Positions 42,786 to 46,087 of a stretch of DNA of 64,000 nt are shown piece after piece; within the stretch, counting starts at the first letter, position 1, and each line of letters begins with the position of its first letter. This DNA comes from Salinigranum halophilum. Lineage in GTDB: Archaea > Halobacteriota > Halobacteria > Halobacteriales > Haloferacaceae. Both the position numbers and the translations under genes were made by a program. The DNA lies in NCBI RefSeq assembly GCF_007004735.1, contig NZ_SSNL01000006.1, forward strand, positions 62,001-126,000, written 5' to 3'. The notes below the pieces were generated by a model. The model was not told the DNA's origin and ran no database searches. It saw only the letters and a program-made list of their open reading frames with translations.

Positions 42786-42939
42786 GCAGGGAGCGAAGGA
42801 CGGTCGGATGAGAGTGCGGACAGGGGCGATCGCTCGACTGTGTTAACCAACAGAAACGGGTGAGCAGCGCGGTTTGTTGGTTAACATCGCCGGCGGTTGC
42901 AGCCCTGACAGCCCCCAGTGAGAGAAAAGCGAACACACA

Positions 42940-42962
42940 CACCCCTCGTCCAGAGTGTAAAC
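42940..42962 (-). repeat. Origin repeat box (ORB) 1, leftward
   Basis: Read on the minus strand it is GTTTACACTCTGGACGAGG followed by GGTG. It carries the G-string typical of ORBs and points opposite to boxes 2 to 6. Confidence 0.8.
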
Positions 42963-43165
42963 CGACGAGAGGGGGTGGGGGTGGTTCCACACGAAACGGG
43001 GGTCGAGGGTCGGTGAGCCGACACCACCATCGAGAACATCCCACGATTTCGGCGGGGAGAAGCCGTGAGGAGGGTGGAGGACGGCGGAGAACACGGAGCG
43101 GGAGGGAACAGAGGGCGAACACCCCGAGGTCGGTTTCCACACCGGCCAGACGAATACCGCCTTCG

Positions 43166-43275
43166 TCTATATTTCTAACTGAAATACACTTGGTGGGCTT
43201 TTCGCCTGTATAGTATAAGAATCATACGTTAAGTATACGTAAGATGATACAACTAGTCGAGTACACGTTCTATCC
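43166..43275. other. AT-rich candidate DNA unwinding element
   Basis: This is the most AT-rich stretch of the intergenic region, with TATAGTATAAGAATCATACG near 43209 and overlapping TACGT/ACGTA inverted motifs near 43225-43240. It lies between the oppositely oriented boxes 1 and 2, the place where origin melting is expected. Confidence 0.6.
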
Positions 43276-43377
43276 TGTACTAGTCCCCGGAATGAGGCCA
43301 CAATGGCACCGCCTTCGTGCGGTTTCGTCAGGTGACAGTCCAGTGGGGCCGACCACACCCCCCGACCCCTTCGGACT

Positions 43378-43400
43378 GTTACACTCTGGACGAGGGGTGT
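43378..43400 (+). repeat. Origin repeat box 2
   Basis: TTACACTCTGGACGAGGGG core with G-string, rightward. It is the first box to the right of the AT-rich tract. Confidence 0.8.
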
Positions 43401-43553
43401 GTGGGTCCGTTCGTCCATCGGTGCCCTCTCGCTCCACGGGCCCTCACCCCCGGTCGACCACCCGGAGCGTCACCGCCGACACCGTCCGTGACCGGAGAAC
43501 TGGTCAACGTAACCACATCGGCCCGAACGCGTCTCTGTGTGACCTCCACTGCC

Positions 43554-43577
43554 GTTTACACTCTGGACGAGGGGTGT
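43554..43577 (+). repeat. Origin repeat box 3
   Basis: Exact TTACACTCTGGACGAGGGG core, rightward. Confidence 0.8.
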
Positions 43578-43640
43578 CTGCCGGACGTCAGACGTTCGTT
43601 TCTCTGTTTGACTCTCGAATATTGATACGAGCGGACCGCT

Positions 43641-43663
43641 GTTACACTCTGGACGAGGGGTGT
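43641..43663 (+). repeat. Origin repeat box 4
   Basis: Exact core, rightward, 87 bp after box 3. Confidence 0.8.
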
Positions 43664-43741
43664 CCCTGGTCGACTTGCGGGTCCACCTCGGGGCCTCGGT
43701 CCTTCGCACTCACCGACACGAACGGCCGCTCGACTTCTCAC

Positions 43742-43765
43742 GTTTACACTCTGGACGAGGGGTGT
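43742..43765 (+). repeat. Origin repeat box 5
   Basis: Exact core, rightward, about 101 bp after box 4. Confidence 0.8.
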
Positions 43766-43884
43766 CCGACGCGCGCGGCGACGCGACTAGTGTGTCCCTC
43801 TCGACGTCGTATCACTCGGGACAGAGTCCGTTAGCACCTGTTCGATACACGCTCGAATACGCGTTACCGTCCAGCCAGCCGTCG

Positions 43885-43908
43885 ATTTACACTCTTGCCG
43901 AGGGGGGC
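43885..43908 (+). repeat. Origin repeat box 6 (variant), next to the orc1/cdc6 promoter
   Basis: The variant core TTACACTCTTGCCGAGGGG lies directly before the ATTATATA box at 43913-43920. Binding here would place the initiator on its own promoter and suggests autoregulation. Confidence 0.7.
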
Positions 43909-43912
43909 GAAT

Positions 43913-43920
43913 GATTATAT
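43913..43920 (+). promoter_or_regulatory. TATA box of orc1/cdc6
   Basis: The sequence ATTATATA lies 27 to 34 bp before the ATG at 43947. It supports that start over an upstream in-frame ATG at 43911, which would place the TATA box inside the coding region. Confidence 0.6.
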
Positions 43921-43946
43921 ACTGGGAGGACGCGTATGTGATACCG

Positions 43947-45224
43947 ATGGCTGACGAATCCTCACGGCTCTCTGATTTCGGCGACCGGTTCGAGGACCCC
44001 TCTGAGGACCCGCTGTTCAACCTCGACGAGGACGACCCCGACCGTGTCGACATCTTCGCGCGCAAGGAGCTGCTGAAAGTCGGGCACGTCCCCGAGAGCG
44101 CGCGCATCGTCGGCCGCGATAACGAGATCGAGGCCGTGGCCGCGGAACTCCGACCGATCGTTCGCGGCGACCCGCCGAACAACGTGATCATCTACGGGAA
44201 GACGGGCACGGGCAAGTCGCTCGTCGCTCGGCACGTCACCGAGCGTGCTCGGCGGGCCGCCGAGTCGAACGGCAAGCTCGTGGGAACGGTGTACGTCGAC
44301 TGCGCACAGCACAACACCCAGACGCGCGTCGCCCGCATGATTACGCGCTCGCTCAACGACACCGCGCGCACTGACTTCGAGATTCCCCGTGCGGGGATCG
44401 GGAGTGGCGAGTACTACGACTACCTCTGGGAGATTCTCGACCAGGCCTACGAGTCGGTGATCATCATCCTCGACGAGGTGGACCGCCTCGACGACGACGA
44501 CATCCTCATGCAACTCTCACGTGCCCGCGAGTCGGGCAAGGCCGACTGTCACCTCGGGGTCATCGCCGTGAGCAACAAGATCGAGTACCGGAACCGCCTG
44601 AACGAGCGGGTCAAGTCCAGTCTCCGCGAGGAAGAGTTCGTCTTCCAGCCGTACGATGCGAACCAGCTTCGTGGCATCATGGAACACCGGCGCGACGCCT
44701 TCCAGGAGGACGTCCTCTCCGACGACGTCATTCCCCTCACCGCCGCCGTCGCCGCACAGGAACACGGCGACGCGCGGAAGGCAATCGAGATCCTCCGCCA
44801 CGCCGGTGAACTCGCCGAACGCGACGGTGCCGAGTGGGTCACCGAGGACCACGTTCGCGACGCACAGGAGTGGGCCGAGGTCGACCGATTCGAGGAACTC
44901 CTGCGCGGGTCGACGACGCAGGTGAAGTACATCCTCTACTCGCTCGCGCTCTTGACCGAGGAGAACCCCGACGCCGACGGTTTCTCGACGAGTCGTATCT
45001 ACCGCCACTATTCCGAGACGGTGAGCACCATCGACGCCACGACACTGAGCGAACACCGGGTGTACGAACTGCTGAAAGAGCAGGCGTTCCTCGGCGTGGT
45101 CGAATCGACCCGAACGGGCGGCGGGCGCGGCCAGGGGAGCTACCTCGAACACCGACTGGTCCAGGATACCGATATCGTCCTCAAATCCGTCCTCCGGGAC
45201 AGCCGGCTGAAAGAACTCGCGTAG
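43947..45224 (+). CDS. Orc1/Cdc6-type replication initiator
   Basis: From the ATG at 43947 this is a 425-residue AAA+ ATPase. Walker A GKTGTGKS lies at 84-91, Walker B IIILDEVD at 172-179 and sensor 1 VIAVSNKIEYRNRL near 200. The initiator-specific motif sits inside the AAA domain, and a C-terminal winged helix (about 335-415, with STSRIYRHYSETV and HRVYELLKEQAFLGVVES) binds origin repeats. It is flanked by the repeat boxes it should recognise. Haloarchaea carry many orc genes, each tied to its own origin; this one belongs to the TTACACTCTGGACGAGGGG repeat class seen here. Confidence 0.95.
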   Translation: MADESSRLSDFGDRFEDPSEDPLFNLDEDDPDRVDIFARKELLKVGHVPESARIVGRDNEIEAVAAELRPIVRGDPPNNVIIYGKTGTGKSLVARHVTERARRAAESNGKLVGTVYVDCAQHNTQTRVARMITRSLNDTARTDFEIPRAGIGSGEYYDYLWEILDQAYESVIIILDEVDRLDDDDILMQLSRARESGKADCHLGVIAVSNKIEYRNRLNERVKSSLREEEFVFQPYDANQLRGIMEHRRDAFQEDVLSDDVIPLTAAVAAQEHGDARKAIEILRHAGELAERDGAEWVTEDHVRDAQEWAEVDRFEELLRGSTTQVKYILYSLALLTEENPDADGFSTSRIYRHYSETVSTIDATTLSEHRVYELLKEQAFLGVVESTRTGGGRGQGSYLEHRLVQDTDIVLKSVLRDSRLKELA

Positions 45225-45290
45225 CCTGGGAACGCGACCCCTCGTTCCCGCCCGCCCTCTCGTTCGAACCGGCTGGCTGTTCTCCGCCGA

Positions 45291-45312
45291 CACCCCTCAT
45301 CAAGAGTGTAAC
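45291..45312 (-). repeat. Origin repeat box 7 (variant), downstream of orc1/cdc6
   Basis: Read on the minus strand it is TTACACTCTTGATGAGGGG, pointing back toward the initiator gene. Together with box 6 it frames the gene with variant boxes. Confidence 0.65.
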
Positions 45313-45643: not shown

Positions 45644-46072
45644 CTAGCTGATGTCCGCCAGCGGACCGAAGTCGTCGACCGGGAGTACCGAGTAGTCGAC
45701 TGTGAGCGTGTCTTTGGTCGCTCTGATCTTCCCGACGAACGTGGAGATGTCCTCGAGCGAGCCTTCGAGCACGAACAGTTCCATGCAGTGGTGGCCGCCG
45801 ACGTGGCTGTGGAAGTTCGAGGCGACGGTGTCCTCGTACTCGTGACGGAGCCGCATCATCTTCTCCTCCACGCTGGTCGTCTCGTAATCGAACACCACCG
45901 TGACGATGCCCATCAGTTCGCGGCCTTCGAGTTTCTTGTCCTGGAACTCGCCGAGGAGGTTACGGCTCGCCTCACGGAGCACCTCGCTGCGACCCGTGTA
46001 GCCGTGGTCGTCCGCGAACTGGTCGATCCGCTCGAGTAGTTCCTCCGGCATGGAGATACTGACGACGGTCAT
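45644..46072 (-). CDS. nikR: Nickel-responsive regulator NikR
   Basis: This 142-residue protein is counted from the ATG at 46072. A ribbon-helix-helix domain (2-45, [35 protein letters not shown]) is followed by an ACT-type nickel domain. Ligands His77, His88, His90 and Cys96 (in [14 protein letters not shown]) match the His-His-His-Cys set of NikR with a one-residue offset. It represses nickel uptake when nickel is abundant. No nickel transporter is in the window. The 80-bp gap to hutH is AT-rich and holds its promoter. Confidence 0.9.
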
Positions 46073-46087
46073 ATAACAATTCAACCG

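Follow-up and report, generated by a model that had tools for sequence, protein, structure and literature searches.

Why should two imperfect copies of an origin box flank an initiator gene that has five exact copies of the same box upstream of it? The question is raised by a locus of Salinigranum halophilum, at 42.9-45.3 kb of the stretch of DNA analysed here (the window: 64,000 nucleotides, C5:62001-126000), which belongs to the 645-kb contig C5 of a 4.197-Mb genome. The earlier note, made from the letters alone, had read the locus as a seven-box origin framing an orc1/cdc6 gene, with a core of five exact boxes and two variant boxes that would be weaker sites used for autoregulation. The locus was compared with its relatives by aligning 42 loci (40 out of a set of 49, plus L001 and L024), which fall into 19 lineages at 90% gene identity, so that orc DNA differs by more than 10% between lineages. 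Left out were one truncated locus (L083), one at a contig end (L085), three fragments (L092, L094, L095) and four members of a sister family at 48-49% (L088, L089, L090, L093); loci L025-L046 were inspected separately, outside the 42-locus set. The layout listed below was found to be maintained across the 19 lineages.

42940-42960, minus strand: box 1, exact ORB, its left half toward the AT tract (opposed box in 18 of 19 lineages)
42985-43003, plus strand: oriC1-type ORB, TTCCACACGAAACGGGGGT, candidate site for the host universal Orc1, between box 1 and the AT tract
43166-43265, no strand: AT-rich tract, presumed duplex-unwinding element
43379-43399, plus strand: box 2, exact ORB, matching TTACACTCTGGACGAGGGGTG
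43556-43576, plus strand: box 3, exact ORB, matching TTACACTCTGGACGAGGGGTG
43642-43662, plus strand: box 4, exact ORB, matching TTACACTCTGGACGAGGGGTG
43744-43764, plus strand: box 5, exact ORB, matching TTACACTCTGGACGAGGGGTG
43810-43826, plus strand: upstream half-box, TATCACTCGGGACAGAG, a left half without G-string (12 of 19 lineages)
43887-43907, plus strand: promoter half-box, TTACACTCT kept, G-string broken, three mismatches to the box (42 loci, 19 lineages)
43908-43921, plus strand: BRE-like CGAAT and TATA box TTATATA of orc (TATA at 43915-43921), from the sequence
43950-45224, plus strand: orc1/cdc6 initiator gene, 424 aa (Pfam AAA+, Cdc6 lid and C-terminal winged helix; TIGR02928)
45291-45311, minus strand: downstream ORB, two mismatches, G-string intact (downstream boxes in 7 of 19 lineages)

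A core origin and its initiator gene

All seven boxes stand where they had been reported: TTACACTCTGGACGAGGGGTG occurs in the window in five exact copies, one copy with three mismatches and one with two, whereas none of 100 dinucleotide shuffles yields any match at up to three mismatches. At the same threshold the whole genome contains 11 sites, seven of them, which are also the seven closest matches, at this locus and the other four on contig C8, where three lie beside an orc paralog of 55% protein identity (two upstream, one downstream); the reversed pattern, searched genome-wide as a control, finds no site. Box 1 is indeed opposed to boxes 2-5 over a tract richer in AT than any other 100 bp of the window, and the most AT-rich 40 bp, starting at 43209, likewise fall between boxes 1 and 2. 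A G-rich stretch inside box 1 pairs with a weaker one at box 2 (arms of 54 nt, 78% complementary), and these arms resemble the oriC1 enhancer repeat of Haloarcula hispanica (PMC3936714). The locus has the features of haloarchaeal orc1/cdc6-adjacent origins, namely an AT-rich tract between inverted G-string ORBs and an adjacent full-length AAA+/winged-helix Orc. It is not of the oriC1 family: its boxes are of its own TTACACTCTGGACGAGGGGTG type rather than the TTCCASNNGAAACGAAGGGG type, and its Orc, only 41% identical to the oriC1-type paralog over residues 100-422, is not oriC1-type.

The cumulative GC-skew maximum of contig C5 lies at 105,119 after detrending (window 43119) and at 105,115 without it, which puts it within the interval separating boxes 1 and 2, 50 bp from the centre, and the skew range was reached by none of 2000 permutations of 2-kb blocks. 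Among six replicons tested, the maximum coincides with the origin only in C5; it lies 13 kb away in the Salinigranum marinum plasmid, and for four further plasmids 297 to 1206 of 2000 permutations attain the observed skew range, which is thus not significant. Skew support is therefore strong for C5 without being general, and GC skew as a general proof of origin was rejected because the pattern was not repeated in the other five replicons. Taken together, the ORB layout, the AT tract, the opposed box 1 and the skew turning point in the AT gap make the reading of the locus as a core origin, already proposed for the five exact boxes, well supported.

The gene most likely starts at ATG 43950; an in-frame ATG at 43911, chosen in the first ORF call, was rejected, since it lies inside the BRE/TATA region and 43950 fits the relatives. 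The Pfam domains of the product are those of Orc1/Cdc6, with no Rep-type (RepE/RepA) domain among them, and no phage relatives were found. The gene is patchy: at E <=1e-150 it was detected in 22 of 148 family genomes. Across genera the protein is nevertheless 79-88% identical in the full-length loci that were compared, and most copies lie on plasmids or on contigs of 30-440 kb; of 413 plasmid records with any match, 25 match at 80-90% identity and three at 60-80%. Salinigranum marinum carries the same gene on plasmid NZ_CP100462.1, while relatives L060 and L082 are on records titled chromosome and L073 and L075 on 'chromosome 2' records. Patchy spread, high cross-genus identity and a mostly plasmid setting identify the locus as a mobile replicator-initiator cassette, mainly plasmid-borne, of the kind described, as far as these sources were drawn on, by Wu and colleagues (PMC3528665) and in PMC4441112. 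The former describes orc/cdc6-adjacent families that likewise have family-specific G-string ORBs, an AT tract and a patchy species spread, with Orc proteins at least 80% identical within a family and ORBs in both intergenic regions of some members. Paired copies of the present origin about 104-110 kb apart were seen in G105:C4 (L028 and L045), in a Halosimplex aquaticum plasmid (L054 and L068) and, with one copy partial, in G107:C3 (L035 and L046); such plasmids are possibly cointegrates or dimers.

What kind of replicon does this origin serve? The 645 kb of C5 contain no tRNA gene detectable by ARAGORN, and the 16S gene is on contig C10. In three other genomes of the Salinigranum group, the hut genes that neighbour the locus are carried by large contigs of chromosome size, so the C5 megaplasmid may have taken up genes from a chromosome, or else the origin itself may be part of chromosomal DNA. 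The absence of tRNA genes favours the former. Chromosomal integration as the simple reading is weakened by this absence and by the skew maximum, and it was retained as a rival in the form of a relic origin, carried by a plasmid that integrated in the chromosome and no longer firing. The hut neighbours and the bimodal GC content of C5 speak for such a relic; yet a tRNA-free contig, a skew turning point within the AT gap, and boxes and an orc gene that are all intact make it quite improbable. The two GC levels (~0.66-0.69 at about 30-190 kb versus 0.53-0.59 at 255-520 kb) suggest a composite replicon, and C5 and the S. marinum plasmid have little in common apart from orc and a scatter of other genes. 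Just after the origin, at window 45644-46084, lies a gene for a NikR-like regulator (RHH and NikR_C), with similar DNA again at C5:639144.

Two variant boxes that differ in kind

The earlier note had one variant box abutting the TATA box. This box does sit directly at the core promoter; it ends, however, 7 nt upstream of TTATATA, and the intervening CGAATGA is BRE-like, so that what it abuts is the BRE and not the TATA box itself. Its left half, TACACTCT (positions 2-9), is exact in all 42 loci, and each of these columns carries 2.0 bits, compared with a mean of 0.32 over 60 upstream columns. The right half, by contrast, is broken: GGGGTG is intact at the promoter in only one of the 42 loci and one of the 19 lineages (L024), whereas core boxes, called at up to six mismatches within 1500 nt upstream with the last 100 nt excluded, retain it in 102 of 107 cases across the 19 lineages. 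Because these core boxes had been picked by similarity, left halves upstream were also listed irrespective of what follows them, and GGGGTG still accompanies 93 of 106 outside the promoter versus 1 of 19 at it. Two further positions separate the classes, position 12 being A in 94% of core boxes and in 4 of 19 promoter boxes, and position 3 being fixed as A at the promoter while T occurs in 41 of 107 core boxes; under a leave-one-out PWM, all core boxes of a locus outscore its promoter box in 18 of 19 lineages.

The place of the half-box is fixed relative to the TATA box and the ATG, whereas its spacing to the core boxes varies; from its start to the TATA-like element there are 25-29 nt in 18 of 19 lineages (38 nt in L080, Haladaptatus sp. 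DYF46). TACACTCT has ten copies in the 645-kb contig. Seven belong to this origin, and a TATA-like element at the appropriate distance accompanies the promoter copy alone. Judged by conservation, the promoter site is a conserved half-box and not a random variant. Some other loci have degenerate boxes abutting the promoter too: they are strong in the sister loci L088 and L089 (1 and 0 of 5000 shuffles reach the score), fair in paralog L007 (15 of 5000) and weak in paralog L002 (239 of 5000), and none is found in paralog L008 (1073 of 5000 shuffles reach the score), the motif used for L007 and L008 having been derived from L008.

A count of seven boxes overlooks an eighth element, the upstream half-box TATCACTCGGGACAGAG at 43810. 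In twelve of the 19 lineages the promoter box is preceded, at a distance of 76-78 nt, by a counterpart that departs from TTTCACTC at no more than one position; of the remainder, two contain a full box that is spaced differently and five contain versions with 2-3 mismatches.

The variant downstream of the gene is of another sort. Downstream boxes, searched at up to six mismatches, occur once or twice in 7 of 19 lineages and are missing in 12, and GGGGTG is present in 10 of the 11 copies found; the one in this window scores 36.2, against 37.9 for the core boxes. Given that the promoter box lacks the G-string that the downstream box keeps, the two variant boxes, which do flank the orc gene with three and two mismatches as described, differ in kind. 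The proposal of weaker autoregulatory sites consequently suits the promoter box, with its invariant half, broken G-string and promoter-tied position in 18 of 19 lineages, and does not suit the downstream box, with its near-core score and limited spread. By its sequence the latter is a full ORB, and it may titrate the initiator, the role proposed for such boxes at oriC2. That orc genes can have ORBs on either side is already established (PMC3528665, PMC3936714), and the order seen here, ORBs upstream of orc and one or more directly downstream, is that of the H. hispanica oriC2-cdc6E locus, where the downstream oriC2D ORBs were shown to restrain the origin, probably by initiator titration (PMC3936714). 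The same source counts 11 ORBs in oriC2D and three in Halorubrum lacusprofundi, as opposed to one here, and its description of oriC2-cdc6E, in the part drawn on, is without a promoter half-box. The upstream side of orc in L080 has one core box and yielded no box 1, and two exact boxes follow the gene, as though the origin had shifted to its other side. L002, the locus of the 55% identical paralog (G000 contig C8, 89363-90565), has related boxes upstream and about five downstream, an oriC2D-like arrangement; the undetrended skew maximum of contig C8 lies about 2.6 kb from it.

A site of the oriC1 type

Between box 1 and the AT tract lies an ORB of a different family, TTCCACACGAAACGGGGGT, comparable with the TTCCAGTTGAAACGAAGGGGT and similar ORBs of the chromosomal oriC1-type loci examined, although its G-run is shorter than theirs. 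Its 19-mer pattern occurs only once in the 645-kb contig, even at two mismatches. CCASNNGAAAC with at most one mismatch is found 18-27 nt inside box 1 in 13 of the 18 lineages having box 1 (seven exact), compared with 2 of 18, none exact, in a control search on the box-2 side; across six replicons (1.97 Mb) this shorter pattern at the same tolerance has five sites, all at this origin, with no match in the S. marinum replicon. Two ORB types beside one orc gene have been recorded in two genomes (PMC3528665). By analogy with DnaA sites in bacterial plasmid origins, the element may be a site for the host universal Orc1. It was rejected as a rule for all orc origins, being absent from most other orc loci scanned. 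The oriC1-type loci themselves (L009, L239, L240, L249 and L250) have an intact ORB (CCASNNGAAAC and G-run) near the orc start in five of five genomes; there it starts 23-27 nt before the likely start codon and would thus cover the TATA-to-start region, which suggests autoregulation at oriC1 too.

How the initiator might govern its own gene

What could an incomplete box at the initiator's promoter be for? Orc1/Cdc6 recognises the G-string through its AAA+ domain (PMC3936714); a half-box lacking the G-string is hence best read as a low-affinity site for the winged helix only, and because the half-box sits so constantly on the BRE, it is likely to influence orc transcription. The picture that we consider probable, with real room for doubt, is a bidirectional megaplasmid-type origin run by its own Orc1/Cdc6, with negative feedback through the half-box and titration or looping downstream. 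Orc would bind box 1 and boxes 2-5 as full ORBs, through winged-helix half and G-string, open the AT tract and load MCM. Once the origin boxes are filled, the same Orc would weakly read the winged-helix half-site at the promoter and, lying against the BRE, hinder TFB/TBP and so lower orc transcription, perhaps assisted through cooperation or looping by the second half-box 77 bp upstream, while the downstream full ORB would soak up or loop initiator and restrain firing. Orc binding, the reading of the half by the winged helix, the weaker affinity, the repressing sign and the titration are all steps that we infer from the arrangement of sites.

The sign of the feedback deserves particular care. 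Negative feedback is favoured by analogy with dnaA and iteron plasmids. Archaeal activators also sit just upstream of the BRE, and with Sulfolobus Orc1-2 being an activator as well, the sign could be positive. Orc at about -50 would then recruit TFB/TBP; the near-fixed TATA spacing in 18 of 19 lineages, a BRE that is not itself overlapped in the window, and the room that a missing G-string half would leave for TFB are compatible with this, as is the footprint of Sulfolobus Orc1-2, likewise an Orc1-type AAA+/winged-helix protein, on its own promoter, where it acts as an activator (PMC9738581). That protein, unlike the present Orc, is a non-initiator that uses the motif ANTTTC and drives the DNA damage response (PMC9738581). 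A self-activating initiator would, moreover, be expected to run away in copy number unless held by some other brake, and the broken G-string is suggestive of a low-occupancy sensor, so that we regard activation as unlikely, albeit the strongest competitor. The two half-boxes share the orientation of boxes 2-5, and their 76-78 nt spacing in 12 of 19 lineages would suit a low-affinity, gene-proximal end of the origin that aids the spread of an Orc filament and has no role in transcription; such an end should hardly be tied, as the promoter half-box is, to TATA and ATG instead of the variably spaced core boxes, and we think it rather improbable. Could the half-box be read by another factor altogether, a transcription regulator, its likeness to the left half of an ORB being inherited and not functional for Orc? 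The idea deserves mention, Orc binding there being a prediction; yet in each of the 42 loci the 8-mer is identical at every base to the left half of the ORB, and of its 10 copies in the contig just 3 are found outside the origin, none with a TATA, which leaves this very improbable.

The locus also has a bacterial counterpart in layout. The oriS-repE-incC order of the F plasmid runs, like the present locus, from a host-initiator site through an AT tract, iterons and operator to the rep gene and downstream iterons (PMC13028717). The initiators are nevertheless unrelated, RepE not being an AAA+ Orc; the F operator is an inverted repeat bound by dimers, and incC has five iterons where one downstream box is present here (PMC13028717). 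It is a tentative thought, and one we hold below even odds, that a widespread haloarchaeal plasmid replicon with a eukaryote-type initiator evolved the same control circuit as bacterial iteron plasmids. If so, full boxes would fire the origin; half-boxes without the AAA+-contacted G-string would form the operator on the BRE; the parts would be completed by a host Orc1 site next to box 1 and by a box downstream that titrates or loops; and the initiator would tell operator from origin by the presence of both box halves.

The literature searched yielded no account of a replication initiator in archaea that controls its own gene via a modified ORB. Nor did it mention a conserved promoter half-ORB, a paired half-box or a lone oriC1-type ORB, elements that may stand in supplementary ORB lists; in the portion of the PMC3528665 survey used here, a promoter half-site or an extra oriC1-type ORB is not set apart. 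What the locus offers is a candidate operator defined to base level by 42 relatives: a conserved, incomplete copy of the binding site beside orc that probably lets the initiator adjust its own production. If true, this would explain how one Orc can be both initiator and regulator and would provide a handle on archaeal megaplasmid copy number.
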